Of a stretch of 64,000 nt of DNA, positions 5,048 to 23,853 are shown piece after piece. Origin of the DNA: Alphaproteobacteria bacterium (lineage in GTDB: Bacteria; Pseudomonadota; Alphaproteobacteria; UBA9219; RFNS01); NCBI GenBank assembly GCA_037200005.1, contig JBBCGY010000001.1:1693103-1757102 (forward strand), read 5' to 3'. The notes under the pieces were generated by a model. The model saw only the letters and a program-made list of their open reading frames with translations, was not told the origin of the DNA and did no database searches. Position 1 is the first letter of the stretch; the number at the start of each line of letters is the position of its first letter. The translations under genes and the position numbers were made by a program.

Positions 5048-5740
5048 TCATCTTCTACTACCAAACACGAACCCCGCCGCCGCTTCGCACTGACAATGGA
5101 TTGGATTGATGAGAGGTTTGGGAGCGCTGGTTTCGTTGATGGCTAGGGGAAGCTCAGTGCACGCCAGGATAATGGCGTCCACCTCGGCATAGCGTTTCAG
5201 CATCGCGGCGAAGATGCGGGGATAGGACGGGTCGAGATTGCCGAGCGCCAGTTCTGACTGAATGTCCTGGATCGACTTACGGTCTTCGGCATTGGGGATC
5301 ATGACCTTGATGCCCCTGTCCTCGAAATATTTGGCGAAGAAGCCGTCCTCCATCGTGAAAGCCGTTCCTAGCAGCAAGACGGTCTTGTGTCCCTGCCGCT
5401 GGGCTTCCTCCGCCGCCAGATGGCCGGCATGGAATACTGGGATGGTGATATTCAGGCTATCCCTTATCTGGTCGAAGGCGCGGTGCAGCGTGTTGTTACA
5501 GATGATGAGGCAGTCCGGCCCCTTGGCGAGGAAGAAGCGGACTTCCTCGGCCAGTAGCGCGGGGATTTTATCCCAGCCGTCATGATAAAGGCTTTTGATC
5601 GGGTGATAATCGATGCTGTAGAGCAGAATCCGCGCCGAATGATGCCCGCCCAGCGCCTTCTGCGCCGCGCGATTGAGCAACTCATAATAGCTGAAGGTCG
5701 AAGGCCAGCTCGTCCCGCCGAGAAGTCCTATGGTTTTCAT
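5048..5740 (-). CDS. Aspartate/glutamate racemase family protein
   Basis: PLP-independent racemase fold of about 230 residues, which would interconvert L- and D-Asp or D-Glu through two cysteines. The N-terminus 'KTIGLLGGTSWPST' is the usual glycine-rich start. The two catalytic cysteines are in 'CNNTLHRAFD' and 'ACTELPLAI'. ATG 5740 is preferred over the in-frame TTG three bases earlier because AGGTGATT sits just upstream. It is the last gene of a minus-strand operon with a VanX-like dipeptidase (54-bp gap), a D-Ala-D-Ala-type ligase, a PhzF/DapF-like protein and an oxygenase, so it probably supplies a D-amino acid to that pathway. The substrate cannot be read from sequence. The C-terminal segment after the second cysteine has a cysteine (IHCQCE) that is not usual for the family. 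Confidence 0.85.
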   Translation of the reverse strand: MKTIGLLGGTSWPSTFSYYELLNRAAQKALGGHHSARILLYSIDYHPIKSLYHDGWDKIPALLAEEVRFFLAKGPDCLIICNNTLHRAFDQIRDSLNITIPVFHAGHLAAEEAQRQGHKTVLLLGTAFTMEDGFFAKYFEDRGIKVMIPNAEDRKSIQDIQSELALGNLDPSYPRIFAAMLKRYAEVDAIILACTELPLAINETSAPKPLINPIHCQCEAAAGFVFGSRR

Positions 5741-5793
5741 CAATCACCTGGGGACGAAGTCGTACGAAGATGGTGACAGATTAAAGAGGCTTT

Positions 5794-6585
5794 TCATTTC
5801 TCAGGATTTTCCATGTATCCATACCAAGCTTCCGATGGCGCATTAACAGTCTGGAACATGCGCAGCATACGAATATACATTTCGTTCCCATAATCAAAAT
5901 GCCAGAATTCCAGAGGATAATTTGTAAATCCAACTTGTTGCATAGACAAATGGAGAAGCCGCCGATTCCAAAGGCGCGCATCATTATCTGCAATCTCACC
6001 AGCTACAAGCTTTCTCTCAAAAAAATCGCTATGACTTATAGACGACGTTTCATCAAAACGAGCACCCATATCTAACAACCTTCCTGTTTCTTTGTGACGT
6101 ATAAATAAATCAATGGCAGCACCAGTGGAATGGGTTGGCCATGTCCTGGAATCTTCGAGCGCAAACATACTCGGATCAGAAACATAGTTTAGAACGTATT
6201 GTCGACGCTCTTCTTCGGAAGAGTCAGGCATTTCGCACATTGCTTTTCTGGTAAAGAAGCTCCACAGACCACGCTGACATTCAATCGAGCGATATGCATC
6301 CAGGACGTAAACTTCGAGTCCGTAATTAGACAGAATTTGATTCACTCTTAGAAGTTTGAGCGCAACCGCTTCCCGCCCCCATACCTCTTGCATGGCCCCT
6401 TCAATTTTTTCTAGGTAAGGCCAGTTATCCCCATCAGATCGATTGTAATAACTTTCGCAAGCGATGTTTAAGTCAAGAAATTTGACCAATCGGTCTTTAG
6501 CCTCACTGTGATTTTCATTGAAATCAATATAATATACTTTGAAAAAGTCTCTTGGAATGAAAAATCTATGATGGGTACGGAGCAT
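5794..6585 (-). CDS. D-Ala-D-Ala dipeptidase, VanX/DdpX-like (M15)
   Basis: A 263-residue zinc D,D-dipeptidase. The metal-site motif SxHxxGxAxD appears as 'THSTGAAIDLFI' and the distal motif ExWH as 'EFWHFDYG', so the zinc ligands His, Asp and His and the catalytic Glu are all present. The segment 'VLDAYRSIECQRGLW' carries the arginine that binds the substrate in VanX. No signal peptide is visible, so it should act in the cytoplasm like VanX rather than as a periplasmic carboxypeptidase. It lies between a D-Ala-D-Ala-type ligase (157-bp gap) and the racemase. In glycopeptide resistance VanX removes D-Ala-D-Ala so that a modified terminus prevails; a similar editing or immunity role is an inference here. 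No strong ribosome site precedes the ATG, and the N-terminal 30 residues are weakly supported. Confidence 0.82.
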   Translation of the reverse strand: MLRTHHRFFIPRDFFKVYYIDFNENHSEAKDRLVKFLDLNIACESYYNRSDGDNWPYLEKIEGAMQEVWGREAVALKLLRVNQILSNYGLEVYVLDAYRSIECQRGLWSFFTRKAMCEMPDSSEEERRQYVLNYVSDPSMFALEDSRTWPTHSTGAAIDLFIRHKETGRLLDMGARFDETSSISHSDFFERKLVAGEIADNDARLWNRRLLHLSMQQVGFTNYPLEFWHFDYGNEMYIRMLRMFQTVNAPSEAWYGYMENPEK

Positions 6586-6742
6586 GTAAGCAGCGCCGAT
6601 GATTCATTGGGAATCTGATTCAGCCAAGGGAATACGGAATGCACCTTGTCTAGCGGCATGGGAGTTTGGGGCGCGCCTTTTGTTCTTCTACGCATGGCAT
6701 CTTCTATTCTGCATTGTGCCTAAGTTCCATCTCACATGCCTA

Positions 6743-7909
6743 TTATGTCATATCTTTTTTAACGAGACTTATTTTTCCTCCTTGTTCAGAAGGACGAGCA
6801 GGCATTGCAAACGCTGATTCTGGGGTCACGGCCAAGTTAATAATGTGATTTAACAGTTCCGTGTATTCAAGGCCTGCCTCTTTCATAAGCATGGGGAAAA
6901 CGCTAGAGGCGGTAAAGCCAGGTATTGTGTTGACCTCATTAAGATAGAGTTGAGATGTTCCTCTATCCAGAAAAAAATCTATACGGGCAAACCCGCGGCA
7001 TTCTATGGCTTGGTATACCTTTTTTGCCATATCCTGAACTTGTAATTCAATGTCCCGTGGAATGGCAGACGGGCAAATGATGGGAGGCACCGTTTCAAGA
7101 ATATATTTGTCATCATAGGAATCGAAACTATCGGATCGAGGCTGAGACATAGCAGATGGGGAAACGATCAGATTCTTGCCATTACCAACAACGCCAACCA
7201 TAAGTTCGATTTGATCTATATATTGCTCCACAAGCGCTGAACCATCATGCTTAAAGGCCAGTTGCAAGGCATCGCCAAGCTCATCAAAAGTTTTAACTCG
7301 GGAAGCTCCTATACTTGAACCACCGCATACGGGTTTTACGAAAAGGTTGTTGTGACCAAAAGAAGAAGTGATGTGATTGCAGACCTCAACAAGACTTTCT
7401 TTCGCTTCCTGCGCCGACACAATTAGGTCTTTGACAACAGGGACGTCGGCACTCCGGACAATCCTCTTGGTTGCTGCTTTATCATACGCAATCGCCGATG
7501 GCAGCACGCCACAACCGACCACAGGCTTGTGGGTCATGGATAGAAACCCCTGCAGAATTCCATCTTCACCATGTGAGCCATGGGTAATTGGAAATAGACA
7601 GTCCACGCCCGCAAAATGCTCGGCAGAAGGAAAGCCGGAAAACGTTTCGACGGGAGACGCAACAGAAGGAGGGGGCAGATTCCGTATTTTGAAAGGCAGC
7701 ATGGCGCTATCTGTCTGCATATAAAGTTGCCACCACGCGCCAGGCCCAATTAGCCAGTTTCCATCCTTCGAGATGCCGAATAATGTACCCTGTATACGGC
7801 TTGGATCGATATTTTCTAAAATGGATTTAGTGCTGGCAAGGCTAACCTCATGTTCGGCGCTCGTGCCGCCGAAAATAAATCCAACTCTTATGGGGCGATC
7901 TATAGACAT
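6743..7909 (-). CDS. D-alanine--D-alanine ligase family (ATP-grasp)
   Basis: A 388-residue ATP-grasp ligase that would join two D-amino acids using ATP. Visible motifs are 'GGTSAEHEVSL' at the N-terminus, 'HGSHGEDGILQG' and 'KPVCGGSSIGAS' for nucleotide and first-substrate binding, and 'LNEVNTIPGFTASS' for metal and second-substrate binding. The omega-loop reads 'FDSYDDKY', matching the 'FYDYEAKY' pattern of dipeptide-forming Ddl and keeping its second tyrosine, rather than the VanA depsipeptide type. A GAGGAG site precedes ATG 7909. Because it sits with racemase, epimerase-like, VanX-like and oxygenase genes rather than in a cell-division cluster, it is unlikely to be the housekeeping ddl. 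Its product could be D-Ala-D-X with a modified X; that is inference. Confidence 0.88.
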   Translation of the reverse strand: MSIDRPIRVGFIFGGTSAEHEVSLASTKSILENIDPSRIQGTLFGISKDGNWLIGPGAWWQLYMQTDSAMLPFKIRNLPPPSVASPVETFSGFPSAEHFAGVDCLFPITHGSHGEDGILQGFLSMTHKPVVGCGVLPSAIAYDKAATKRIVRSADVPVVKDLIVSAQEAKESLVEVCNHITSSFGHNNLFVKPVCGGSSIGASRVKTFDELGDALQLAFKHDGSALVEQYIDQIELMVGVVGNGKNLIVSPSAMSQPRSDSFDSYDDKYILETVPPIICPSAIPRDIELQVQDMAKKVYQAIECRGFARIDFFLDRGTSQLYLNEVNTIPGFTASSVFPMLMKEAGLEYTELLNHIINLAVTPESAFAMPARPSEQGGKISLVKKDMT

Positions 7910-10293: not shown

Positions 10294-10974
10294 ATGTCCA
10301 TCTCAGGAAAACAGCTCACCGCCGCTCGCGCTCTCGCAGGCTGGACGGCTGCCGCACTTGCCGAACGGGCGGGGCTGTCGCGTGACGCCATCATGAAAAT
10401 CGAGGCGGGAACCGTCCAACCGCGCGAAGGGACGATTGCCGACATCACAAGCGCCTTTGCCGCCATTGGTATCGAATTCACCGACCATAACGGTGTCCGG
10501 CAAAAACCGGAAGGCATGGACAAGCTGCATGGACGGGACGGCCTACTGAAATTCCTGGATTTGGTATACCGCTATCTCTCGGAAAACGGTGGGCGTGTAT
10601 GCGTGACCGGCGTCGATGAAGAGCAATGGAATGAGGTTATGGGCGAAGCGGCGGAATCACATTTCACGCGCATGACCCAGCTTGTCGATCAGCGCCAGGA
10701 CGTGGAGTTCTCGTGTCTGTGCGAGGAAGGAACCCGTCAGACGGGAACCGAGTCCTACACGAAATATCGCTGGCAATCGCAGAAGGACTTCAAGTCAGTT
10801 CCCTTTTATGTTTTCGGGGATTATCTGGCGATCATCGTTTTCGAGGGCGATCCGTCACCGACCATTTTTCTTATCAACTCGACAATCGCCGCCGACGCAT
10901 ACCGGCAACAGTTCATGAAAATGTGGGAGACGGCGAAAGTCATGCCGCGCAAGGGTAATGTTAAATCCAGTTGA
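10294..10974 (+). CDS. XRE-family transcriptional regulator
   Basis: A 226-residue protein with an N-terminal Cro/CI-type helix-turn-helix (residues about 4-65: 'LTAARALAGWTAAALAERAG', then 'SRDAIMKIEAG') that should bind DNA as a dimer. This opening is typical of short alphaproteobacterial XRE regulators. The C-terminal 150 residues form an unassigned alpha/beta region ('YRWQSQKDFKSVPFYVFGDY') that could sense a ligand or partner. Its 3' end overlaps the EgtD-like methyltransferase by 17 bases, so the two are probably co-translated. The palindrome at 10192-10209 is a candidate operator. Confidence 0.85.
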   Translation: MSISGKQLTAARALAGWTAAALAERAGLSRDAIMKIEAGTVQPREGTIADITSAFAAIGIEFTDHNGVRQKPEGMDKLHGRDGLLKFLDLVYRYLSENGGRVCVTGVDEEQWNEVMGEAAESHFTRMTQLVDQRQDVEFSCLCEEGTRQTGTESYTKYRWQSQKDFKSVPFYVFGDYLAIIVFEGDPSPTIFLINSTIAADAYRQQFMKMWETAKVMPRKGNVKSS

Positions 10975-11971
10975 TCTTGAGCTATTGCGCGACGCGCAGG
11001 ACTTATTTGCCCGGCGCCGGGACGCGCATATGGGCGCGCATCTCTATGCCGATCATGGCGGACGCAACGGCAATCCCAGCAAGACAGGCGCGAAGTTATG
11101 GAAAAGTCTTGCGGAGGAGGAACCGGCTTACTATATCTCGCGCGATGACAACCGGCTTCTGGCCGAGAGCCTGAGCAGCCTAAGCAAAGCTATCCCGCCG
11201 CATCTCACGCTACGGGATATCGGCCCCGGCGCGGATGAGTCCGTTATCAGAAAGACGGTTTCTCTGGTCAAGGCACTGCAGCCGAGTCTTTATACCGCCG
11301 TGGATGTCGAACCGAGCTTCGCCCAAGCAGCCTGCGAACTGGTCAAGCAGGCTATTCCCGGCGTTTCGGCCAGGCCGGAAGTCGCCAATGCTCTGCAGGG
11401 GGATCAGAATTCATCAGAGCCAGCCGTTACATATTTCGGCGGCTCGACAGTTGGCAATATCGTGCATGGCCTTGATGCGCAATTCCCGGTCACGAAGCTA
11501 GCCGGAATGCTGCATGGCCTCGCCCCTCATGACGACAATTATCTTATCCTTTCATTCGATGCCAATCGTGACCCAGCATCTCTCCTTAAAGCTTATGCAA
11601 GCGAGGGAAGCGTGGAGTTTTGCACGAACGCCTTGCATCGCATCGCCCGCGAATTACCCCATCAAGGATTCGACGCGGAGAACTTCTCCTACAGGCCTTT
11701 CTGGAACGCGCAAGGGGGTCAGATCGCTCATCTATGGCAAGTGCGCAGAGATATGGATTTCACTCTCGGCGGCGAGCATTTTTCTTTGAAAGCTGGCGAA
11801 GAATTTCACGGCCTGAATTCCTACAAGCCGTCGGAAGGCAACATCGCCAAAGCAGCGAAGCTTGCAGGGCTTGAAGTCCTACAATTCTTCAGGAACGACA
11901 GCACTCTGCGGCTCGGGGTTCTCCACCGGCCCGCCGCGACGACCAGCCTGCCTAAATTGGCGGTGGGATAA
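10958..11971 (+). CDS. EgtD-like SAM-dependent methyltransferase
   Basis: A 337-residue protein resembling the histidine-specific methyltransferase (EgtD) family, which trimethylates histidine in ergothioneine synthesis. The SAM-site region is 'LRDIGPGADESVIRKTVSL', followed by 'YTAVDVEPSFAQAA', 'TYFGGSTVGNIVHGL' (the family FxGSxxGN motif), and 'NALHRIARELPHQGFD', equivalent to the LxRINRExxxxFD stretch. No EgtB or EgtC neighbour is seen, and it is coupled to an XRE regulator instead, so ergothioneine synthesis is not supported by context and the substrate is open. The start overlaps the upstream gene. Confidence 0.72.
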   Translation: MLNPVDLELLRDAQDLFARRRDAHMGAHLYADHGGRNGNPSKTGAKLWKSLAEEEPAYYISRDDNRLLAESLSSLSKAIPPHLTLRDIGPGADESVIRKTVSLVKALQPSLYTAVDVEPSFAQAACELVKQAIPGVSARPEVANALQGDQNSSEPAVTYFGGSTVGNIVHGLDAQFPVTKLAGMLHGLAPHDDNYLILSFDANRDPASLLKAYASEGSVEFCTNALHRIARELPHQGFDAENFSYRPFWNAQGGQIAHLWQVRRDMDFTLGGEHFSLKAGEEFHGLNSYKPSEGNIAKAAKLAGLEVLQFFRNDSTLRLGVLHRPAATTSLPKLAVG

Positions 11972-12134: not shown

Positions 12135-13049
12135 TTAACGTCCCAACAATTCCTTCTCCAAATTTACATAAGCGTCTTGATGTTTTTGCTCTGACATCTT
12201 CTGAAGATTGAGCAGCTTCCAGCGAACCGCGGGCAAATTCTCAACATCTTGCAAGCCGAGAAGCGGCCAATCCGGCTCGCGCGACTTGAAGGACAGCAGG
12301 AAAGCTTTCTCCTGTTTGGTCAAGGAAGCGCGAAGAGTTTTGATGAACTTCTCGCGCGTTTCCTCCAGGTCGGCCACCGTGACCGGTATCGTGGTCATTC
12401 TAGCGAATTCGCCCTCGAAGATATTGCGTATGTCTTTCCGCGTCGGGGCGATCAATTCGGCGATAGGCCTGTGATGACTGATAAGGTAGACGAGGAAGGT
12501 CTTGCGTAAGTCGTCGTCGATGCCCTCGTTTTCCATGAGCAGTTTAACATCGAACAAATCCCGCGGATGCTGGCGATCCAACGCCGCGCAAAGCTTACCA
12601 GCGTACAAATCAGGCAAGGAGAGAACCAGCATCTCGCCATAGCCGAATTCCTCTTCCACAATCGGCCTGACGTCCATGGCGATAGGAGGAAACACACTTC
12701 CGCGCAACACTGGCGACAGTTCGATTTTGATGCGGGCATCCCCTTGCGTGACGAAGAGCCGCAATGCATCGGATGCTTCATGCGTGGTTAGCACCTCGCT
12801 ATCCGGCAATTCCTTTTTAATATTGGCGGCTATCCGGGATAAGGCGCTGCGCGCATTCCGAAGCGCCGTCTCGCGGTCATCAAGCGGGAGATAAACGAGG
12901 TCGATATCGACCGAAAGCCGAGGAAGATCGCGAACAAACAAATTGATCGCCGTTCCGCCCTTCAAGGCAAAGCAGCTTTCTTGCCCAATTATGGGAAAGA
13001 GCCGCACGAGCAGCCGCACCTGCCGGTAATAGAGGCTGTTCCTATCCAT
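12135..13049 (-). CDS. abiEii: AbiEii/AbiGii-family nucleotidyltransferase toxin
   Basis: Toxin of a type IV toxin-antitoxin abortive infection system. AbiEii-family proteins are nucleotidyltransferases that block growth on phage infection. The active-site region is 'ALKGGTAINLFVRD' (residues 28-41) followed by 'SVDIDLVYLPL', which gives the DxD metal ligands Asp48 and Asp50. The central 'YAGKLCAALDRQHPRDLFDV' segment is typical of the family. It is 304 residues long, so complete. The start overlaps the antitoxin gene by 8 bases, the usual coupling for abiE. The neighbouring DISARM-like and helicase/GHKL genes fit a defence island. Confidence 0.88.
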   Translation of the reverse strand: MDRNSLYYRQVRLLVRLFPIIGQESCFALKGGTAINLFVRDLPRLSVDIDLVYLPLDDRETALRNARSALSRIAANIKKELPDSEVLTTHEASDALRLFVTQGDARIKIELSPVLRGSVFPPIAMDVRPIVEEEFGYGEMLVLSLPDLYAGKLCAALDRQHPRDLFDVKLLMENEGIDDDLRKTFLVYLISHHRPIAELIAPTRKDIRNIFEGEFARMTTIPVTVADLEETREKFIKTLRASLTKQEKAFLLSFKSREPDWPLLGLQDVENLPAVRWKLLNLQKMSEQKHQDAYVNLEKELLGR

Positions 13050-13890
13050 GTGTATTCCCGGCCATTTCCTTCGGCACTGTTATCAGATATTTGGGATCAA
13101 GCTTGCCGCCTTTTACAAGCTCGCGTTTGCCCGATCCTAGTGCGCCGCTTTCCATGCTGAATTTATCGAGATCGATTTTCTTTAGCCAGGGCAATTGATT
13201 TTTTTCGGCAAGCCAAAGAAACAGGCGTTTTACTTTAACATTTTCACAGCGCGAAAGCAGCCTGTTTAGCTTGATGGGTGACAGCATAGGCAGACCTTGC
13301 ATTAGCTGATTGGCATGTTCGAGAGAAGTGTTTTCCGGGACATCCATAAGCACTTCAAACATTGCGCGTTCCGGCCCTGATATCGTGAGAGGCCATTCAT
13401 CCAAGCGCCATGCCCAGGGTATTGTATCTTCATAGGACTGGCCGTGCTTTGTGGAATAAACATGATTCTTGAGACCGGTCGAACGCAAGGCTTTCAATGG
13501 AAGATTCTTGTGGTGGATATAGGTTGTTTGCAACGGAAACTTGTTTATCCATTCCGGCATCTTTTCTTGGCTATAAAGGTGCACAGTTTTATGCGCCAAA
13601 GGAGATAGATAATGCGCGTGGCCTTGAAGAGTTAGAGCCGTCAACCCTCCCGGCATCACAACTTCATGCATTCTTTGTAACGAACAAACAACGCCTTCCC
13701 ATGTAAGTCGCGTCGTCTCCGGCAGCTTGAATACTCCACGGACTTCAGAGGTAACAGAAACCAATTGCTCGCTCTTGATCCAATTATCAAGCGTATGGCG
13801 TTCAACGCCCCCTTTATCCATCAACCAAGAGCGCGTGACGACCAGCCCATAAGGGACAAGCTCGTGAAGGTGTTTTTGTGCCTTTTTCAT
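13042..13890 (-). CDS. abiEi: AbiEi-family antitoxin and repressor
   Basis: Antitoxin partner of abiEii, about 282 residues. The N-terminal winged helix-turn-helix (roughly 1-65: 'YGLVVTRSWLMDKGGVERHT' onward) binds DNA, and the C-terminal domain, ending 'GKRELVKGGKLDPKYLITVP', is typical of AbiEi and gives the antitoxin function. ATG 13890 is preferred to an upstream TTG because family proteins begin close to the winged helix. AbiEi is known to repress its own promoter by binding two inverted repeats, and exactly two identical palindromes lie upstream at 13920-14015. Confidence 0.87.
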   Translation of the reverse strand: MKKAQKHLHELVPYGLVVTRSWLMDKGGVERHTLDNWIKSEQLVSVTSEVRGVFKLPETTRLTWEGVVCSLQRMHEVVMPGGLTALTLQGHAHYLSPLAHKTVHLYSQEKMPEWINKFPLQTTYIHHKNLPLKALRSTGLKNHVYSTKHGQSYEDTIPWAWRLDEWPLTISGPERAMFEVLMDVPENTSLEHANQLMQGLPMLSPIKLNRLLSRCENVKVKRLFLWLAEKNQLPWLKKIDLDKFSMESGALGSGKRELVKGGKLDPKYLITVPKEMAGNTHG

Positions 13891-13919
13891 GCGCACCACC
13901 AAGTTTATAAAATGCTATA

Positions 13920-14015
13920 TTTGCGGCGAAAATCGCCGCAAAATGCAGTATCAATAAACTAACACACGGGAATTGGTTTATCAATATCTAAATTTGCGGC
14001 GAAAATCGCCGCAAA
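13920..14015. promoter_or_regulatory. Two identical 23-bp palindromes, probable AbiEi operators
   Basis: Perfect inverted repeats at 13920-13942 and 13993-14015, each TTTGCGGCGA-AAA-TCGCCGCAAA, 73 bp apart start to start (about seven helical turns). They fill the divergent gap between abiEi (minus) and the SF1 helicase gene (plus). Known AbiEi proteins bind two such repeats cooperatively to repress the abiE operon. Placement between divergent genes means the helicase operon could be under the same control. Confidence 0.8.
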
Positions 14016-14108
14016 TCACACGTTTATTAAACCAAATAAAGCTTGACCAATTGGGGAATTTTTTCAGATGCTGCTATTCAGGGTAGCATTCCACATAAGG
14101 GGAGCAAT

Positions 14109-16814
14109 ATGAGCAAAGAAACCTCTCTTGCTAACGAGGCATATAAAAAGTTTGCGCACGATACACTCCAACAATTGGAGAAAATTGCATTAGCGGCTCA
14201 TAAAAAGCTTGCCGATTTTCAACCGCCCGGGCCAACCTCGATGGCGACCATCAATACCCTAACTTCTCCTTCCGCTGTAAGAAATTTAGACCAAATCGGC
14301 CAAGCAAGTCGGCAAAGTTACCAAGAATTATCAATAGAACCGGCTATAGCTAGGGTTGAAGTCATAGATGAAAATAAAAAAAGGCGGCTCTACTATATAT
14401 GCCGAGGTGCCCCCATTCCCATAAATGGGATAGTTCTAGCCAGCTACAATTCATTCATCGGTCGTCTCGCCGCCCTCCCCGTTGGCAGCGAACTTACAAT
14501 CAAAGACGATGTAACAGTAGAAATCGTAGAACAAGCTAAGCTGAAACCAAAGTATTCTAACGCGTGGGATGCATATGCTGAAATTAATGCCAAGACACGC
14601 CGTCGTGCAATAACCATTGCATCCCTCCAAGCCCTCTTACATGGATTGCAAGAGCAAGAAAAAATCGAGGACATCTTAGGACAGATACAAGCCGAAGCAA
14701 AAAGCGAAGCAATTCTTATTGAAGGTATTCGCCGCAGTATTATTTCGAAAATGGGCCTTAGAGATCAACCCATATTAGACCAATATCAAGACAAAATTTT
14801 CCGCATGCCCTTAAACAAGCAGCTGTTCTTAATGGGCCCTCCGGGAACTGGGAAAACCACGACTTTAATTCGTCGTCTAGGCCAGAAATCAGATACCTCA
14901 TATCTCGAAGAGGATGAAAGAAATATAGTCAAAGCAAGCAGCCTTCTACAAACAGAGGTTCATAATAATAGCTGGCTAATGTTCACGCCAACCGAATTAT
15001 TAAGGCAGTACCTAAAAGAAGCTTTTGCTCGTGAAAACATAGCAGCTTCAGATCGGCGCGTTAGAACATGGCAGGATTATCAGCGAGATTTAGCTAGAAG
15101 GGTTTTCAATATTTTAAAGAGCGCATCCGGAAACGGAAATTTTGTTATGAAAGATATCGACGAATCGATATCAACTGCAGCTATTCACAATTCGATTTCT
15201 TGGTATGAAGATTTCGATAACTGGCAACAAGCAGTCTTTTTCAAAGAACTTCGAACATCAGCAATGTTTCTCAAAGAAGGGAAAATCGCTCAAATAAACA
15301 AATTGGGACATAATATACATACCATTCTTGAGCGTGTCGGCGTCGACAACTTAGCCTCCGTTCTCCAGGCACTTGCCAAAGCAGCTGCCAATGCCTTGAA
15401 TATTAATAGCACCTTGAAGAAACCAATAGACACAAAAATCGATCAAATAATCCAACTTCAACTTAACACCGATAAAGAATTTTTGAACGCTCTAACACAA
15501 TATCTCAGAGATATAAAAGAACAAGTCGACGAAGAAGACGATCTGGAAGCATTAGAAGCGGATGAGGAGATCGAATTTTGGTCAGGCTCTATAATAGATA
15601 AAGATAAGGCTGTGCGCGCTTATAGACAGGCAATACGTACCCATGCATATGCAAAGTCCCTTGGAAAAACATTAAACAAAAAATCCCGCAATGGAAAAAT
15701 TATAGAATGGCTGGACCAACGCTTACCTACAGAGCAGGACCAAATAGAGATCGGCGAGAGCCTTGTTCTTCAAAGCCATATAAGAGCATTCACAAGCCCT
15801 ATTAAACTTTACATGAATAGCATGCCCAAGCGTTACCGCGCATTCAGGCGAACGCGCTTAGAGGAGAATAGTTGGTATGTTAATAAAAACCCTTCCTCGT
15901 CAAGAGAAATTCACTCGCTTGAAATTGATATAATACTGCTGTCTCTTTTGCGAACATCACATGCGCTTTTATATGCAACTAACGTCGTTCAGGATATTGG
16001 GTCTCCCATCTGGTCATGCCTGAAACCAGTCTTGGACTTATACAAGAATCAGATCATGGTTGATGAAGCTACCGACTTCTCCCCCATACAATTGGCCTGC
16101 ATGACAGCGATGACCAATCCACAAATCCGTTCCTTTTTTGCGTGCGGAGATTTCAATCAACGCTTAACCATATGGGGCACACAATCTCCTGATGATTTAG
16201 AATGGGCGCTCCCTAATGTTGAAATTCAGGAAGTTACTATTTCATATCGACAAAGTGCCCAATTAAATGATTTAGCAAGGGCGATCATCCACGCTACCGA
16301 CGGGCCTCAAAATAAGGTTACACTTGCTGAAGATGTTGATAACAACGGGGTAGAGCCTGCATTGATAGAATATACAAACGATAATGTAGCATTAGCAAAA
16401 TGGCTGGCGCAGCGCATCCACGAAATTGAAGGCAGTGTTGGCCAAATGCCCTCGACAGCCATCTTTGTAAACTCCGAAGATGAGATTGAATTATTAGTCC
16501 AGCCACTGCTTATAGCTTTAGCTGAATATAACATCCAGGTTTTTGGGTGCAAAGATGGAAGAGTCGTAGGACAGGATAGCGACATCCGCGTATTTAATAT
16601 TCAACATATTAAAGGACTGGAGTTTGAAGCAGCATTTTATATTGCGATTGATCGCCTTGCTGTTATGCAGCCAGAACTTTTCAGCAAATATTTATATGTC
16701 GGGGCAACAAGAGCCGCCACATATTTAGGCCTTACATGTGAAGGAGCTTTGCCAGAAAGCTTAGAAAAACTACGAAATAAATTCGTTCCTAATTGGGAAA
16801 GGTATAACAAATAG
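14109..16814 (+). CDS. Superfamily 1 (UvrD-like) helicase, putative defence protein
   Basis: A 901-residue helicase. ATG 14109 is chosen over one at 14043 because GGGGAGCAAT precedes it. The SF1 motifs are complete: Walker A 'GPPGTGKTT' (about 243-251), Ia 'SWLMFTPTELLRQYL', II 'MVDEATDFSP' (about 648), III 'FACGDFNQRL', IV 'VTISYRQSAQL', V 'IQHIKGLEFEAAF' and VI 'YVGATRAATYLGL' (about 861). Nearly 400 residues, rich in Asp, Glu and Lys, separate motifs Ia and II, an unusually large insertion. The N-terminal 240 residues are of unknown fold. It should translocate on nucleic acid with ATP. It is followed after 69 bp by a GHKL-ATPase/nuclease fusion, and the pair is AT-rich against the backbone, suggesting transfer. 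An anti-phage role is inferred from context. Confidence 0.85.
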   Translation: MSKETSLANEAYKKFAHDTLQQLEKIALAAHKKLADFQPPGPTSMATINTLTSPSAVRNLDQIGQASRQSYQELSIEPAIARVEVIDENKKRRLYYICRGAPIPINGIVLASYNSFIGRLAALPVGSELTIKDDVTVEIVEQAKLKPKYSNAWDAYAEINAKTRRRAITIASLQALLHGLQEQEKIEDILGQIQAEAKSEAILIEGIRRSIISKMGLRDQPILDQYQDKIFRMPLNKQLFLMGPPGTGKTTTLIRRLGQKSDTSYLEEDERNIVKASSLLQTEVHNNSWLMFTPTELLRQYLKEAFARENIAASDRRVRTWQDYQRDLARRVFNILKSASGNGNFVMKDIDESISTAAIHNSISWYEDFDNWQQAVFFKELRTSAMFLKEGKIAQINKLGHNIHTILERVGVDNLASVLQALAKAAANALNINSTLKKPIDTKIDQIIQLQLNTDKEFLNALTQYLRDIKEQVDEEDDLEALEADEEIEFWSGSIIDKDKAVRAYRQAIRTHAYAKSLGKTLNKKSRNGKIIEWLDQRLPTEQDQIEIGESLVLQSHIRAFTSPIKLYMNSMPKRYRAFRRTRLEENSWYVNKNPSSSREIHSLEIDIILLSLLRTSHALLYATNVVQDIGSPIWSCLKPVLDLYKNQIMVDEATDFSPIQLACMTAMTNPQIRSFFACGDFNQRLTIWGTQSPDDLEWALPNVEIQEVTISYRQSAQLNDLARAIIHATDGPQNKVTLAEDVDNNGVEPALIEYTNDNVALAKWLAQRIHEIEGSVGQMPSTAIFVNSEDEIELLVQPLLIALAEYNIQVFGCKDGRVVGQDSDIRVFNIQHIKGLEFEAAFYIAIDRLAVMQPELFSKYLYVGATRAATYLGLTCEGALPESLEKLRNKFVPNWERYNK

Positions 16815-16883
16815 CTTCAGCTCAGTCATGCTAATCTAAGCAAGCAATACCATACATAATACATATAAAGGTCACCCCGCCGC

Positions 16884-18887
16884 ATGAAGACTAACCTTAG
16901 AGGATTAGTAGGTCGACTCGAATTAAGTGCTTCCCGCGGGATGTTGCCTTTATTCGAGGCGATATCCAACGCCATTGATGCTATTGGAGAGCGGGGAATT
17001 AAGACCTCGGAAGGCAGCATTCGCATTCGCTTAATCGAAGCGCAGGACTTAGTCCGTCAATCCGGGGACACAGCCCTCGTGGTTGATGGATTTGAAATAT
17101 CTGATAATGGGATTGGGTTTGATGATCGCCGTTTGGCCTCCTTTGAAGAGGCATACACTCTTGCCAAAGTGACCGCGGGCGGAAAAGGAGTTGGAAGATT
17201 CACATTTCTAAAGATATTCTCGTCTGTTCAGGTTCGCAGCGTGTTTGAACGCGAAGAAAAAAGATACGCTAGAAGTTTTAATTTCTCTGTTGATAACGAA
17301 GTTGACGGTGCAGAAAACCTTGCTCCTACCAACAATCCGGTTGGAACCAACATTACTATGAGGACGATTGATCAGAAATATCGATCAGCCTGGCCCAGAG
17401 ATATAGAAACTATTGCTGAAAGAATAATTACCCATTTCTTGATTCATTTTGCAGGACGCACTTGTCCATCTATTCACTTGGAAACTCAAGGAACACCACC
17501 CATCAATTTAATTGACTTCTTTCAAACCACTATGCATCCGCACATCCAAGAAAAGTCATTCGAGATAGATGGGCATATTTTCTCATTACAAGCATTCCGT
17601 CATCGAGATGGTCGTTCGCGCCATGACTATATTCTCTGTGCCAACGGACGCGAAGTGATTAAGGCTAAATTGAAGGATTTATTGCCCGAACTCCCTGATA
17701 AATTTGTGAATGAATCACAAGAAACATATACATTAATTGCGTTGATAACAGGTGAGTATCTAGACGATCACGCCAATCAGGAACGAACCCGCGTTGCCTT
17801 TATGGAAGATGATGACGAGTTGGCAATAGATACAGCGCTGCTGCCACGCCAGTCTCTCAATAAAGCTATTGCTTCCAACCTTCGCTCCGTCCTCGCGGTC
17901 GATCTTAAAACTACAAATGAAGAGAAAATAGCCCAAATTGAAAGATTGGTTGAAAAGGCCCCCGAATATAGAATGCTCATGCATGAAAAATATAGGCTTA
18001 TTTTAGAAGAAAAGATTGCCCCTGGCCTTAGCGAAGATAAATTAGATGAAGTCTTGCTCCACATAAGGCGTGATATTGAAGATGGCGCGCGCAAAGAAGA
18101 AAAGAATATTGTTGCTCTTATCGAAAAGGGTTCGTTTGAGCAATATCAAGAACGTCTTAAAAAAATAATTGAAACGATGAACGACGTAGGCAAATCAAAA
18201 CTTGCTGACTATGTTGCTCATCGCCGAATAATACTCGATCTGATCGAGGTCAGCTTAAAACGAGTACAACAAGATACCTCCTATCCGTTGGAGAAAGTCC
18301 TTCATAATATGATTTTTCCTATGGGCCAAACATCTAAAGACATTTTCCTTGATCAACAGAATTTGTGGGTTATTGATGAACGGTTGTGCTTTCATACGCT
18401 CATCACTTCAGATAAAAAGCTTAATAGCATAGCAGGTTTAGAATCTACTTCAGGCAAAGAGCCAGATATTCTCAGCTTTTTCTATGATACTCCCATCGGT
18501 GTTGCCGAACCGGGGGACTTGGCAGGTGGGGGCGTTGTCATAATCGAATTTAAACGCCCGGGCAGAGATGATTATAACAAAGACCCTGCAGACCAAATTA
18601 TTCAGAGATTTGTCGAAATTAGCCAAGGCAATGTTACGTCCATAGATGGGCGTCCAATTAATAGCCAAGGCCTGAGGTATTTAGGATATCTTATTGCCGA
18701 TCTTACACCTTCCCTTAGACGCCACGTCAAAATGCGCTATCATGAGACGGTAGATGGAGAAGGATATTTCTATACGTTGCCCAATGGCAATGGATACATA
18801 GAGATTATGTCCTATGACAAACTTATCCAAGACTCTAAACGACGCAACCGCATTCTTTTTGACAAGCTTGGACTTCATAAGAATTAG
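16884..18887 (+). CDS. GHKL ATPase fused to a PD-(D/E)XK-like nuclease domain
   Basis: A 667-residue protein. The N-terminal Bergerat fold has the N box 'EAISNAIDAI' (25-34), G1 'DNGIGF' (74-79) and G2 'GGKGVGRF' (99-106), as in HSP90, MutL and MORC ATPases. The middle (about 330-480) is helical and charged. Near the C-terminus 'EPDILSFFYD' (about 525-534), then a glycine-rich turn and 'VVIIEFKRPG' (about 550-559), give the D...ExK pattern of PD-(D/E)XK nucleases. GHKL domains usually close like a clamp on ATP binding, so a plausible model is ATP-gated DNA capture followed by cleavage, with the upstream helicase as partner. It ends at a strong hairpin. I do not recall a named defence system with this pair. 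Confidence 0.8.
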   Translation: MKTNLRGLVGRLELSASRGMLPLFEAISNAIDAIGERGIKTSEGSIRIRLIEAQDLVRQSGDTALVVDGFEISDNGIGFDDRRLASFEEAYTLAKVTAGGKGVGRFTFLKIFSSVQVRSVFEREEKRYARSFNFSVDNEVDGAENLAPTNNPVGTNITMRTIDQKYRSAWPRDIETIAERIITHFLIHFAGRTCPSIHLETQGTPPINLIDFFQTTMHPHIQEKSFEIDGHIFSLQAFRHRDGRSRHDYILCANGREVIKAKLKDLLPELPDKFVNESQETYTLIALITGEYLDDHANQERTRVAFMEDDDELAIDTALLPRQSLNKAIASNLRSVLAVDLKTTNEEKIAQIERLVEKAPEYRMLMHEKYRLILEEKIAPGLSEDKLDEVLLHIRRDIEDGARKEEKNIVALIEKGSFEQYQERLKKIIETMNDVGKSKLADYVAHRRIILDLIEVSLKRVQQDTSYPLEKVLHNMIFPMGQTSKDIFLDQQNLWVIDERLCFHTLITSDKKLNSIAGLESTSGKEPDILSFFYDTPIGVAEPGDLAGGGVVIIEFKRPGRDDYNKDPADQIIQRFVEISQGNVTSIDGRPINSQGLRYLGYLIADLTPSLRRHVKMRYHETVDGEGYFYTLPNGNGYIEIMSYDKLIQDSKRRNRILFDKLGLHKN

Positions 18888-18910
18888 AGGCCGCCCAATG
18901 GGCGGCCTCT
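18886..18910. terminator. Strong hairpin between convergent genes
   Basis: Arms GAGGCCGCCC / GGGCGGCCTC with an AAT loop, plus one flanking A-T pair. It begins inside the stop codon of the GHKL gene and lies 18 bases before the end of the DUF927 gene on the other strand. Probably a bidirectional terminator, although the following T-run is weak (TCCTGTCTTC). Confidence 0.7.
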
Positions 18911-18928: not shown

Positions 18929-20656
18929 CTAAGATTGTAGCGGAACATCCGAAAGAATGGATGCCTTAATCGCGTAGCCCGGATCAGTCTTTTGGTTCGT
19001 ACGAACCTTTCTGTTCAGCAGGCGACGTATTTTAGGGGTGCCGTCCTTGGTTTTCCCATTGCGCTCGGTTACCAAACTCTTACCGAGAGAATCCCATAGA
19101 AGGTTAGCCTCGTATTTCCCCATAAAGCCCCGGATGAATACCTTTTCTGGTATCCAGAAACATTTCTGACCCTGCTTCTCGAAACGGAAACCAGGACAAT
19201 CATTTAATTCCTCATCACTCATGTCCTGCATATCATCCGGCAATTTAATAAACCGCTTCTTATTTTGACGTATATATTCCGCCACAGCGACCTCTGGCCG
19301 AACAGGTCTATGCTGTCTTACAAAGTTGAAGTGAAGCGTATAACAGGCCACAACAACCTTAAAGATTCTCTTCCTTGACCAAGGCAAGACACCATATTTT
19401 TTGGCAAGCATACCAGCGGCATAGACAAGCGCAAATCGGCGCTCCGGTCGGCCGCGTCCCCCTTGCCTATTCTTTTCGCACCATTTTATAAAATAGCTCA
19501 CTCTCTTGCGGAGCCATTTTAGACGCTGCGATCTTTTCTGTTTGTCTTTACATTCTTCACAGAATCTCTCCATGAATACGTCAATAGCGGTGCCATAATA
19601 ACGCCTCACTTTCTTATGGAGATAGCCATCGATATAGTGCTTATGCGAACTGTACCCATCCGGCAGGAAATCGAGAACACTCTCCCTTCCATTGTCCCCC
19701 TTATTGCCAATTGGGATTTCGAGGAAACGATCCATATGTTCGTCAGACCATATCCTCCCCGCCTCATTCAACAGATCAAAACCGGATTTGTTGCTGCTGC
19801 TTAACATCACCCCATTCCATTCGACTGGAGTGCCGCCATTTTTTCTATTTTTTCCACGACCACCTGTGTAGCAGAATATGGAGTCAACCATAGTCGTGGC
19901 CTTCTGTTGCGGCGAACCAGGAAGACAACTTATATCATCCATGCAGGCCAATATGTCATTATGCTGGCACGCGATATCCTCAATCGCGTTATCTGTTGTC
20001 CGCCACTTCTCAAGGAAGCCTCTATCATCCCCCGTAGAGCCCCATACGGAGCCAGCGATCAGTGACTTTGTTGTTTTTCCGCTCCCAGCTGCACCCGGCG
20101 TGTTAAAGCAAAAACCCCCTTCTCTCAATGGGCGCAAGAGGGGTGGCACAAAGGCGCACATAATATCAAAGGCAAGGTGAACATGTTCTCCGCACGGTTT
20201 GGCAATATGTTTCTGCCACTCCTCTAGCGTTCCCCTTACCGCCCATTTTCTTTCCAATTCGGAATCGGTTTCTCTGCTCACAACAATATGATCGTTAGTT
20301 GCCATAAAGGACGAGCGCTGCGTTATATAAACTTTATCCTTCTGCCATCCGAAGCCGCTGGCAACCGTGAAGTCACGTTCATCTGAGATGCCATGCTTAA
20401 ATTCATACTTTTCAACCATAGATAATACTGCCTCTTCCGATGATCGACGCAACATCGGATATTGAAGCTCACGCGAAAATTGGTCTTTTAGAGGCTTTCC
20501 TCTTTCTTCAAATTTATCGCGCGCTACAATTGCTTCGCGACCCGCATACTCCATCTTGTAATACAACCTGTTAGAATCCGTTATGTCGCAACCCACCCCA
20601 GAAATGCACAGTTTCTCTTTGGCATTCATGCTAGCAATTGTTATCTTGGTCTGCAT
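18929..20656 (-). CDS. DUF927-type primase/helicase-like ATPase of a mobile element
   Basis: DUF927 proteins are ATPases found in satellite phages and integrative elements, usually with replication genes. ATG 20656 follows AAGGAG by 6 bases, giving 575 residues; longer readings cross a G-rich palindrome and are less likely. Walker A is 'GAAGSGKTT' (about 190) and Walker B 'ILACMDDISCL' (about 235). The segments 'SGFGWQKDKVYIT' and 'LAFDIMCAFVPPLLRPL' are typical of DUF927. The C-terminus is lysine- and arginine-rich, suiting DNA binding. Neighbours are an HUH Rep, a small HTH protein and an integrase. Confidence 0.75.
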   Translation of the reverse strand: MQTKITIASMNAKEKLCISGVGCDITDSNRLYYKMEYAGREAIVARDKFEERGKPLKDQFSRELQYPMLRRSSEEAVLSMVEKYEFKHGISDERDFTVASGFGWQKDKVYITQRSSFMATNDHIVVSRETDSELERKWAVRGTLEEWQKHIAKPCGEHVHLAFDIMCAFVPPLLRPLREGGFCFNTPGAAGSGKTTKSLIAGSVWGSTGDDRGFLEKWRTTDNAIEDIACQHNDILACMDDISCLPGSPQQKATTMVDSIFCYTGGRGKNRKNGGTPVEWNGVMLSSSNKSGFDLLNEAGRIWSDEHMDRFLEIPIGNKGDNGRESVLDFLPDGYSSHKHYIDGYLHKKVRRYYGTAIDVFMERFCEECKDKQKRSQRLKWLRKRVSYFIKWCEKNRQGGRGRPERRFALVYAAGMLAKKYGVLPWSRKRIFKVVVACYTLHFNFVRQHRPVRPEVAVAEYIRQNKKRFIKLPDDMQDMSDEELNDCPGFRFEKQGQKCFWIPEKVFIRGFMGKYEANLLWDSLGKSLVTERNGKTKDGTPKIRRLLNRKVRTNQKTDPGYAIKASILSDVPLQS

Positions 20657-20688
20657 CTTGAACTCCTTATGCATATGTTGATTCACGA

Positions 20689-20740
20689 GTGGGGAAGAGG
20701 GGGGGGTGATGGGAACCGTTCCCTCCCCCCCCCTCCCCAC
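20689..20740. other. G-rich imperfect palindrome, candidate replication origin
   Basis: GTGGGGAAGAGGGGGGGG faces CCCCCCCCCTCCCCAC around a perfect palindromic core GGGAACCGTTCCC (20711-20723). It sits in the 270-bp gap between the HUH Rep gene and the DUF927 gene. Rolling-circle origins are often hairpins near rep, so this is a candidate nick or double-strand origin. The rest of the gap (20741-20930) shows no gene. Confidence 0.4.
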
Positions 20741-20930
20741 CAAACCCACCGTTTCGTTGACTGCATTCACCCTCAGATTTTCCCTAAGTTTAAAACCGCA
20801 GTGTGTGATTGGGTTTTGTTGAGAGACTTCATATCTCCTGATATTTTGCTGAAAAGAGCAGCTTTTCCCTGAAAAAACCCGTGTCTCACCCTCAATTTCT
20901 TAGGAAGAATTCAAGTTTATGGGATGGATG

Positions 20931-21755
20931 TTAGTATGATTTGTAGACTAACTTATCCTTCCTTCTGGATAGATTCCTCGTGATCAATCGATCATCAAAG
21001 GACATGGAATCCAGGTACAGCAGGAGCTCACACAATTCCCCTACCCTTAATTTATTTTCTTGGTCTTCTTCTGTTGGAGATTTTTCCTTTCTAATAAAAT
21101 CATTTTTGAAAATGTAAGTGAGAAGTTTCTTTCTTTTATAAACGCTTACGATTTTGCATTGAGATGAGCCCGTGCAGGTTTTTTTACCTTGATAATGCTT
21201 ACGAAGCTTATCCATTTCGCGATCCTCTCCAACCACAATGATATGTATATGTGGCTGCCAGAGCGTTTTCTCACCCCGATCATCGATATTAAAATCCATC
21301 CCACCTACGACGACTACATTAGAGGGGATACTCTCCCTCAGAATCCGCTGAATGCTCCTTTTAAGTCGAGTATGGTCGAACTTCCGCAACGTATGATATG
21401 GGACGCCTTTTTTAGGAATAATAGTCACCCATTGCAGTTGGTGTTTCTTGTACGGCTTGAGCAAAATTCTCGCCCGTCCTGCCAGCCATAAGCGATAAGC
21501 GCGAGCGCAGACGCTGCAAGCCAGTGATGCGCAAGGTGCATGCTTGTGACTATTTACAGAAAAACCCCAATGACAATCCTCGATCCTGTCGGCGAGTTCT
21601 TCTCCGGCTGATCCACCATAATTTCTTAATTGCCGGATACGCTTTTTTCTGTCTTCACAAGCTTGTCCCGGAGTTTCAAACTCATATAAATATTCAGCCA
21701 ATTTTTTGTTCTGCTCACTTCTGACATCAAATATATGAATGAAGTCATTCATCAT
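20931..21755 (-). CDS. HUH-type rolling-circle replication initiator (Rep)
   Basis: A 274-residue protein starting at ATG 21755 after GAGAGG. The HUH metal motif is 'QPHIHIIVVG' (His169, His171), and a YxxK nicking motif follows in 'LLTYIFKND' (Tyr214, Lys217). A cysteine cluster 'CASLACSVCARAY' (75-87) resembles the zinc-binding segment of plasmid and phage Reps. Such enzymes nick one strand and stay covalently attached through the tyrosine. With the DUF927 ATPase, HTH protein and integrase it suggests an integrative element or phage satellite that can replicate by rolling circle. Confidence 0.72.
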   Translation of the reverse strand: MMNDFIHIFDVRSEQNKKLAEYLYEFETPGQACEDRKKRIRQLRNYGGSAGEELADRIEDCHWGFSVNSHKHAPCASLACSVCARAYRLWLAGRARILLKPYKKHQLQWVTIIPKKGVPYHTLRKFDHTRLKRSIQRILRESIPSNVVVVGGMDFNIDDRGEKTLWQPHIHIIVVGEDREMDKLRKHYQGKKTCTGSSQCKIVSVYKRKKLLTYIFKNDFIRKEKSPTEEDQENKLRVGELCELLLYLDSMSFDDRLITRNLSRRKDKLVYKSY

Positions 21756-21902
21756 TTTGAACCTCTCTTTGGATTTTGACAAAGGACGAGCGCCCGATTT
21801 TCGGGCATGGAAAGCCCTCATCAGAAAACAGTCCTGAATGTTGATGGCGAGTGCCGGCCGTGAATGCATAAGCACCCACGACCGACACCCCTTATGTTAA
21901 GA

Positions 21903-22145
21903 TTAAGCTGCCGTTTTGTATGGCGGCAGAGCCTCTAGCCATTGCAAGAGATCGGAACGCAGAATAATCGTCCGGTCTCCCCATTTTCTGGCCTGCAGGC
22001 TTCCTGTATTCATAGCCGCATAAATACTGCCTCGGCTAAGAGAAGTCATTTTCGCTGTACCCTCAATTGTGAAGGCAACACTAGGTTGATTGTTAACGCG
22101 GTCACTCTGGGCAATTGTTTGTTGGCCTTGGTCTTCATGGAACAT
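21903..22145 (-). CDS. Excisionase/AlpA-like helix-turn-helix protein
   Basis: An 80-residue protein; ATG 22145 is chosen because GAGG lies 8 bases upstream. The C-terminal half, 'SLSRGSIYAAMNTGSLQARK', then 'GDRTIILRSDLLQWL', is the short MerR-like HTH of AlpA and excisionase proteins. It lies between rep and the integrase gene, where such proteins set the direction of recombination or repress the element. Confidence 0.78.
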   Translation of the reverse strand: MFHEDQGQQTIAQSDRVNNQPSVAFTIEGTAKMTSLSRGSIYAAMNTGSLQARKWGDRTIILRSDLLQWLEALPPYKTAA

Positions 22146-22602
22146 AGCTACGTCCTCGATAAAGGTTTTTATCAACAATAGGCCGGATAGCCTACTGCAC
22201 TCCCAATTATTTCCACTTTGCGATTTGGGGGTCACAAAGGGATGGCAGAATCTTGCCATCAGAAAGATCACATGCCTTGCAATAGCGACAAGACTAGCCC
22301 TCGCACATCGAATGATGCTCGATCACCAGTCCGGTCGCACGAACAAGGTCGTGCTGTATATGGGGATTCCTTCGAAATGAGTCTTGCTAAAATACTGACC
22401 TAAGAATTGTACACTGCAAACTTTCTGACTATCGTTTCGTCATCCAGACTCCTTCCGTTATTAAGCCCCCGATGATACCAAAAATTGATGAAAAAGTCAA
22501 GAAAAACGCGCTCGCAACACGCGAAAAATCCTAGCATTTCCGCGGCTTTGTGGCCTTTTTGACACTGAAGAAAATACGCTTATGAACGGATATAGAAACG
22601 CA
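22146..22602. other. Non-coding gap upstream of the HTH gene
   Basis: About 460 bases without a convincing gene. A small hairpin, GATGGCA/TGCCATC, is at 22241-22260. The rest is AT-rich and probably holds the promoter for the HTH/rep operon and the 3' end of the integrase transcript. Plus-strand frames here are short and lack ribosome sites. Confidence 0.4.
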
Positions 22603-23853
22603 TTATTCACTGCCGTTCACAGGCGTATTTTCAGAGTGAATTTCACCCTTGTTTTTGAGACACCAGGACGCCCAATCAGACATCATCTGACGCCGTTTTT
22701 CGAAGAAATCACTGCGAAGGTACGAGGTGAGAGTCTTGTCCTTGGAGATATGCGCCAGGGCCGCCTCTCCGATCTCGCTGGGATAGTTGGTTTGTTCGGC
22801 AGCCCAGTCACGGAACGTAGAGCGGAACCCATGAACGGTTATATCCGTTCGTTCCATGCGCTTTAACAAAGCAAGCATTGCCATGTTGGAGAGGGGTTTA
22901 TTCCTCCTGCCACTTAAGAAGACCCAGTTGAGAGTTTTCCCAGCTGGGTTCCCCTCACGTAGCTTTCTTAAAATCGCTATAGCGGGGCCGGAAAGGGGAA
23001 CACGATGCTCGCGTCCAGCTTTCATGCGGCTACCGGGGATAATCCATAGGCCCTTATCGAGATCAAATTCAGGCCATGTGGCCCCAATGACCTCCCCGGT
23101 TCTCGAAGCCGTATAAATCACCATTTCTAGGGCTCGGGCCGCCATTTCCTCCCTCGCGGCCAGGTCAGCCATAAATACGTGGACTTTGTCGTAATGTAGG
23201 GCATCGTGATGTTTAATCTTTTTAGTCTTGGACGGCTTCGATAGCAGGTTTTCCAGCCTTCCCTTCCAGACGGCCGGATTCTCTCCCCGCCGATATTCCA
23301 TCGTATAAGCCCAGTTTAATACCGACTCGATCCTTCCCCTCAATCTGGAGGCGGTCTCGGTTTTTTCCTTCCATATAGGCTTGAGAATCGCCAGCACATG
23401 CTCGACGTTGACTTCATGTACCGGCATCTTGCCGATGACAGGATAGGCATAGCCTTCCAAGGTGCTTGTCCACTGGTAAGCATGTTTCTCGTTTTTCCAG
23501 CTCGCCTCGTGCGCCTTGATATAAGCGACCGCGCAATCCTTGAAGGTAATGGCGCGCGAAGCTTCAAGTTTAGCCTTTTCCTTTCGCTCCTTTCTCACGG
23601 CTAAAGGATCGATCCCGTCGCTGATCGACCTTCTATATTCAGCAGCCCGGTGTCGTGCTTCCGCCAATGAAACGACGTGGGTTGCCCCCAAACCCATCAT
23701 GTGGGCCTTGCCATACATCATGAAACGAAATATCCATGACTTTGCACCAGTTCCACTCACTTGCAGATAAAGGTTCCCACCATCCGCATAGAACCCCTTG
23801 GTGTTCAAACTTCTAACTTGCATAGCGGTGAGTTTGCAGAACTCTCTTGCCAT
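22603..23853 (-). CDS. int: Tyrosine-type site-specific integrase (DUF4102 N-terminus)
   Basis: A 416-residue P4/CP4-like integrase. The N-terminal DUF4102 arm-binding domain reads 'LTAMQVRSLNTKGFYADGGN'. Catalytic residues are seen as Arg in 'TASRTGEVIG' (about 252), the HxxR box in 'VHGFRSTFRDW' (about 338) and the nucleophile Tyr in 'LTSYLRSDF' (about 378). It should integrate and excise the island at a tRNA-type site. It reads inward from the island's right edge, and a possible tRNA-Ser fragment lies about 200 bp upstream at 24047-24057. Confidence 0.92.
   Translation of the reverse strand: MAREFCKLTAMQVRSLNTKGFYADGGNLYLQVSGTGAKSWIFRFMMYGKAHMMGLGATHVVSLAEARHRAAEYRRSISDGIDPLAVRKERKEKAKLEASRAITFKDCAVAYIKAHEASWKNEKHAYQWTSTLEGYAYPVIGKMPVHEVNVEHVLAILKPIWKEKTETASRLRGRIESVLNWAYTMEYRRGENPAVWKGRLENLLSKPSKTKKIKHHDALHYDKVHVFMADLAAREEMAARALEMVIYTASRTGEVIGATWPEFDLDKGLWIIPGSRMKAGREHRVPLSGPAIAILRKLREGNPAGKTLNWVFLSGRRNKPLSNMAMLALLKRMERTDITVHGFRSTFRDWAAEQTNYPSEIGEAALAHISKDKTLTSYLRSDFFEKRRQMMSDWASWCLKNKGEIHSENTPVNGSE

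Follow-up and report, generated by a model that had tools for sequence, protein, structure and literature searches.

Layout of the locus and its surroundings

The window, i.e. the whole stretch of 64,000 nucleotides that was analysed, harbours two plus-strand genes (14109-16814 and 16884-18887) that are separated by a gap of 69 bp, as the earlier note had described. The first, referred to here as gene 1, encodes a superfamily 1 (SF1) motor, and the second, gene 2, a GHKL ATPase joined to a nuclease. An AbiE pair is located on one side and genes of a mobile element on the other. The features are as follows.

12135-13049, minus strand: AbiEii toxin, a neighbour and separate system (PADLOC AbiEii, 1.8e-122)
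13042-13902, minus strand: AbiEi antitoxin, a neighbour and part of the same separate system (PADLOC AbiEi, 8.6e-73)
13920-13942, no strand assigned: first copy of the 23-bp near-palindrome TTTGCGGCGAAAATCGCCGCAAA, between the divergent AbiEi and motor genes
13993-14015, no strand assigned: second copy of TTTGCGGCGAAAATCGCCGCAAA, in the same intergenic region
14109-16814, plus strand: gene 1 (P0001, 901 aa), HelD/UvrD-like SF1 motor, from the open reading frame and its motifs
14835-14858, plus strand: Walker A motif GPPGTGKT of gene 1 (residues 243-250), from the alignment of gene 1 homologues
15003-16058, plus strand: 352-residue insert from motif Ia to motif II, with low conservation compared to the motifs on either side
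16059-16076, plus strand: motif II VDEATD (residues 651-656), from the same alignment
16884-18887, plus strand: gene 2 (P0002, 667 aa), GHKL ATPase-nuclease of the paraMORC3/VcSduA type
16956-17195, plus strand: Bergerat ATP site of gene 2 (E25/N29, DNGIGF 74-79, G102/G104), from invariant residues and fold
18246-18884, plus strand: C-terminal PD-(D/E)xK nuclease domain, residues 455-667 (E470, D528, E555, K557), from invariant residues, hhalign and an AlphaFold2 fold match
18886-18910, no strand assigned: hairpin between convergent genes, a probable terminator that possibly works in both directions
18929-20770, minus strand: DUF927 primase/helicase-like gene of a mobile element (Pfam, 8.3e-31; PHROG DNA primase, 3.4e-25)
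21903-22271, minus strand: HTH_17 (AlpA/excisionase-like) gene (Pfam, 1.3e-6)
22603-23853, minus strand: P4-like tyrosine integrase (Pfam; PHROG integrase, 3.5e-50)

The AbiE genes and the integrase had been recognised before as neighbours, and both assignments were corroborated by the profile matches listed above. The DISARM-like neighbour proposed alongside them was not recovered: no DISARM model matched any of the 20 ORFs scanned, the pair included. The G+C content is mostly 40-52% between 6 and 25 kb and 40-43% in the pair, compared to 58-61% to the right. Together with the P4-like integrase, HTH_17 and DUF927 genes, this low G+C content makes a mobile island likely, and the minus-strand genes at 18929-23853 likely represent a satellite-like integrative element carrying defence cargo. 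A search for direct repeats marking the island ends revealed nothing convincing, with one 14-bp match. Judged by eye, the 16S gene fragments suggest an alphaproteobacterium. Additionally, we observed an EgtD-like histidine methyltransferase gene at 10958-11971 on the plus strand, which an HTH gene immediately precedes, and a cluster of D-Ala-D-Ala ligase, dipeptidase and racemase genes at 5048-7909 on the minus strand.

Both copies of TTTGCGGCGAAAATCGCCGCAAA, for which shuffled sequences gave an expectation of 0 by chance, lie within a 60-nt direct repeat at 13903-14035. They resemble AbiEi operator pairs and could put the motor gene under AbiEi control. Gene 1 itself might also start further upstream, at a TTG codon at 14043. 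No promoter-like site was found in the 69-bp gap between gene 1 and gene 2. Their spacing on the same strand is compatible with co-transcription, as would be expected if they were functionally linked, and the two genes are possibly expressed from one transcript. The hairpin that had been thought to end the pair is indeed present 3' of gene 2 (11-bp stem, -23.6 kcal/mol, z -4.7). However, the genes on its two sides converge and the minus strand provides the better T-rich tail, so that it may equally serve the DUF927 gene.

Gene 1 and its relatives

Every SF1 helicase motif that the earlier note had claimed for gene 1 could be located. In addition to Walker A and motif II, these are motif Ia (FTPTELL, 292-298), motif III (GDFNQR, 680-685), motif IV (YRQ, 713-715), motif V (HIKGLEFEA, 833-841) and motif VI (YVGATRAA, 863-870), and they are nearly or fully invariant across 11 homologues. 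Ten homologues, at 34-50% identity, have all of these motifs. The large insertion reported for this gene exists as well, although it comprises 352 residues from motif Ia to motif II and reaches about 400 residues only when counted from Walker A.

HelD and HelR are RNA polymerase recycling motors. When the gene 1 profile was compared with solved structures, HelD was the best match (B. subtilis 6wvk, E 1.2e-11; M. smegmatis, 6yxu), followed by UvrD. The NCBIfam HelD/HelR/UvrD models matched most members of the gene 1 family far under their equivalog cut-offs; gene 1 reached 43 bits compared to a curated HelD/HelR cut-off of 1100 bits, and the aligned part was the motor only. These matches, far below the cut-offs, indicate that gene 1 encodes a HelD/UvrD-related motor whose identity as HelD is unproven. 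Homology of its N-terminal part to HelD was suggested by eye only and was discarded, as the profile comparison aligned just the motor.

After removal of duplicates, relatives of gene 1 were found at 19 loci, including that in the window. The other 18 are associated with R-M-like operons, McrBC or nucleases, or have no companion. In Raoultella, Aeromonas and E. coli, the relative shares its operon with a type III restriction subunit and a methylase, an SNF2-like helicase and DUF4391, together with a regulator or DUF262 gene. Elsewhere, relatives adjoin McrBC, HNH or PLD nucleases, or are solitary on conjugative plasmids. The motor is dispensable in the type III R-M-like operon of E. coli and is often lost there: in 44 of the 52 genomes with a match, about 18% of the length of the motor gene aligns, and the gene ends alone remain. 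Two E. coli loci (L134, 7123-21053; L135, 4123-14688) illustrate this operon type with an extra SNF2-like helicase, DUF4391 and the optional HelD-like motor. Literature searches for DUF4391 and for HelD in a defence context yielded nothing useful.

Among 398 genomes of the phylum, one other genome encodes a full-length relative of gene 1. In viral contigs, a single-sequence search gave no match and a profile search identified two full-length relatives. Gene 1 most likely encodes an SF1 motor of HelD/UvrD kin that moves on its own and joins restriction systems and plasmids as an optional accessory; acting by itself, it may unwind DNA or strip it of proteins. The motor is less well explained than the rest of the locus; its family is conserved, is carried on plasmids, prophages and islands, and occupies several restriction operons in which it has no known role.

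Gene 2 and its relatives

The residues of gene 2 were examined first in an alignment of 20 sequences and then across 70 loci, and both catalytic sites recognised in the earlier note, the Bergerat ATP site and the C-terminal D...ExK nuclease signature, were confirmed. The ATP-site residues E25, N29, D74, G76, G78, G102 and G104 are kept in 68/68 readable sequences, and the nuclease residues E470, D528 and E555xK557 in 69/69. R301, a conserved basic residue of the S5-type middle domain, is present in 69 of 70 and may have a catalytic role. The AlphaFold2 model (mean pLDDT 83) agrees with this assignment of the ATP site, as its residues 1-338, spanning the GHKL and S5-type parts, match Hsp90, MORC2/3/4, SMCHD1 and topoisomerase VI-B with Z scores of 16-18. 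A long helical region lies between this part and the nuclease. Modelled alone (mean pLDDT 75), the nuclease domain has its best PDB match in Shedu (8ti9), albeit a modest one (Z 7.0, rmsd 4.4 over 144 residues), with EndoMS, nicking enzymes and McrBC close behind; the comparison to E. coli SduA (8ps5) gave a Z score of 5.4. An hhalign comparison of the nuclease profile with five SduA_C proteins also resulted in a match (prob 91, E 1.2e-6). The Pfam SduA_C (DUF4263) model matched neither P0002 nor its 19 aligned relatives, and the gene 2 profile, when searched against PDB sequences, returned chance-like matches only.

The order of predicted domains points to two descriptions in the literature. 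ParaMORC3 proteins, defined by Iyer, Abhiman and Aravind in 2008, combine GHKL and S5 domains with a C-terminal E-D-ExK nuclease of the RE fold, and some of them stand alone while others accompany R-M genes (PMC2292703). VcSduA, described in 2025 from V. cholerae VSP-II WASA and proposed as Shedu type I-D, is a single-gene anti-phage nuclease that acts against Drexlerviridae in E. coli and against phage X29 in V. cholerae and that needs its GHKL glutamate E27 and its nuclease lysine K557 (PMC12137116). Two relatives of gene 2 (L108 and L116) have E27 and K557 exactly as VcSduA does. By its architecture, gene 2 is a member of this VcSduA/paraMORC3 kind; the view that it belongs to a type without a named match thus had to be given up (PMC12137116, PMC2292703). 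The 2023 PADLOC models do not match gene 2, so that genes of this kind can readily be mistaken for new systems.

The 70 gene 2 loci, counted after removal of duplicates and including the window, are patchily distributed, with 9 other genomes among the 398 of the phylum. Relatives occur on plasmids, in phages and beside recombinases, and some are solitary. Across 63 independent groups with 515 neighbours, named from sequences and annotated records, the recurrent ones are serine/tyrosine recombinases, HsdM, HsdS and type III-like methylases; beyond recombinases and R-M genes, no conserved partner was found in these groups, and the motor never recurs. This recurrence characterises gene 2 as mobile cargo that is often placed in restriction loci. 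Defence genes are frequent at annotated plasmid loci, and a comparison of PADLOC defence matches around gene 2 with matched random regions, a small sample, showed no difference.

Individual loci exemplify these settings. HsdS directly abuts the gene 2 relative in three cases (L005, 6799-9974; L012, 6868-9248; L079, 7587-10984), where the VcSduA/paraMORC3-type gene meets the end of an HsdS-like gene and is nested in a type I R-M-like operon. On a Vibrio fluvialis plasmid (L025, 5619-9013), two genes with a 4-bp overlap, one of classical Shedu and one of the VcSduA type, follow a type I R-M operon. In phage vB_RanS_PJN03 (L030, 2485-4509), a VcSduA-type gene adjoins an integrase and is annotated, probably wrongly, as N-acetylmuramoyl-L-alanine amidase.

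Relation of the two genes and comparison with known systems

Relatives of gene 1 and gene 2 were found together in the window only. With none at the 69 other gene 2 loci and none at the 18 other gene 1 loci, a conserved motor-nuclease pair is rejected, and the new two-gene system that the earlier note had proposed does not stand (1/70 and 1/19 loci). Likewise, the window genome aside, none of the 398 genomes of the phylum combines a gene 2 relative with a full-length gene 1 relative. No PADLOC system, including Gabija and DISARM, matched the pair. Since gene 2 belongs to a described nuclease family and the pair occurs in the window alone, the locus is best seen as a defence gene of an ordinary kind whose neighbour is of interest. 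Of the suggested phage-defence module, a likely defence role for gene 2 survives, whereas its status as new, unnamed and paired does not.

In this lineage, the two genes might nevertheless act as a single defence system, with the motor opening DNA for the GHKL nuclease or feeding DNA to it in the manner of Gabija-type nuclease-helicase pairs. Such an arrangement would fit the same-strand layout with 69 bp and no promoter-like site between the genes, the one hairpin after gene 2, and a G+C content of the pair below that of all its surroundings. Some motor homologues closely precede a nuclease gene (PLD, HNH). There is also precedent, as MutL cooperates with the helicase UvrD, and helicases are partners of MORC-type ATPases in R-M operons (PMC2292703). 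Joint action may thus occur, given that co-transcription is possible and MutL-UvrD provides a model. However, the pair is absent from all the other loci of either gene, both genes have solitary relatives and VcSduA works alone, so that we regard this reading as unlikely. In the genomes compared here, comparative genomics offers nothing in favour of joint motor-nuclease action. A more far-reaching version, improbable in our estimation, would have a HelD-like motor recruited upstream of a VcSduA-type nuclease as a two-component Gabija-like system, the motor supplying or remodelling DNA for an ATP-gated clamp nuclease, and, on a wider view, gene 1 as a member of an undescribed, mobile family of motors that can join several unrelated restriction systems.

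Alternatively, both genes could be remnants of an R-M locus that has lost its methylase and restriction subunits and no longer restricts. Relatives of both are found within R-M operons of type I or III, and no DNA methylase was identified near the pair in the window; yet both frames are intact with all catalytic residues kept, and most gene 2 relatives lack a methylase among their recurrent neighbours, which makes decay very unlikely. Least probable of all is that gene 2 encodes a MutL-like repair or mismatch-processing enzyme outside defence, as suggested by its MutL-type ATPase architecture, the nuclease match to EndoMS and the repair roles that Iyer 2008 proposed for some stand-alone members (PMC2292703), because its relatives are patchy, lie on plasmids, in phages and beside recombinases, and VcSduA restricts phages.

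Overall, we consider it probable that gene 2 encodes a VcSduA/paraMORC3-type nuclease that acts against phages by itself and gene 1 an independent HelD/UvrD-related motor, both carried together with the AbiE pair on a P4-like island. By analogy to VcSduA, MutL and topoisomerase VI, two gene 2 subunits would form an ATP-gated GHKL clamp that closes upon binding some feature of the invading DNA; ATP turnover might then license the C-terminal PD-(D/E)xK domains to cut phage DNA, allowing the cell to survive. Gene 2 would extend, as a distant new member from an apparent alphaproteobacterium, a family whose anti-phage activity was demonstrated only in 2025.

Compared to known systems, the locus resembles Gabija (GajAB) in combining a nuclease with an SF1 helicase. 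GajA, however, is an ABC-ATPase/TOPRIM nuclease, in contrast to the GHKL/PD-(D/E)xK composition of gene 2; Gabija was rejected on these grounds, as gene 2 has no PADLOC match and GajB models match gene 1 weakly and partly. Gene 1 shares with HelD, HelR and UvrD the SF1 motor core and a large insert in the first motor domain; its likeness to HelD is that of the motor core, to which the profile alignment was confined. The nuclease domain of gene 2 resembles that of classical Shedu (SduA of B. cereus and E. coli) by profile and, modestly, by fold, but the N-terminal part of gene 2 is a GHKL ATPase and its nuclease is missed by Pfam SduA_C. The paraMORC3 proteins agree with gene 2 in GHKL, S5 and C-terminal E-D-ExK nuclease, whereas the helicases linked to MORCs and paraMORCs are of superfamily II and gene 1 is of SF1 (PMC2292703). 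The closest counterpart, likened by architecture and residue positions, is VcSduA: one gene with an N-terminal GHKL ATPase, a middle domain and a C-terminal PD-(D/E)xK nuclease, carried on a mobile island. Its catalytic Glu and Lys (E27/K557) are spaced by 530 residues compared to 532 in gene 2 (E25/K557), and what sets the window apart is the SF1 motor gene, unrelated to VcSduA, that sits 69 bp upstream.
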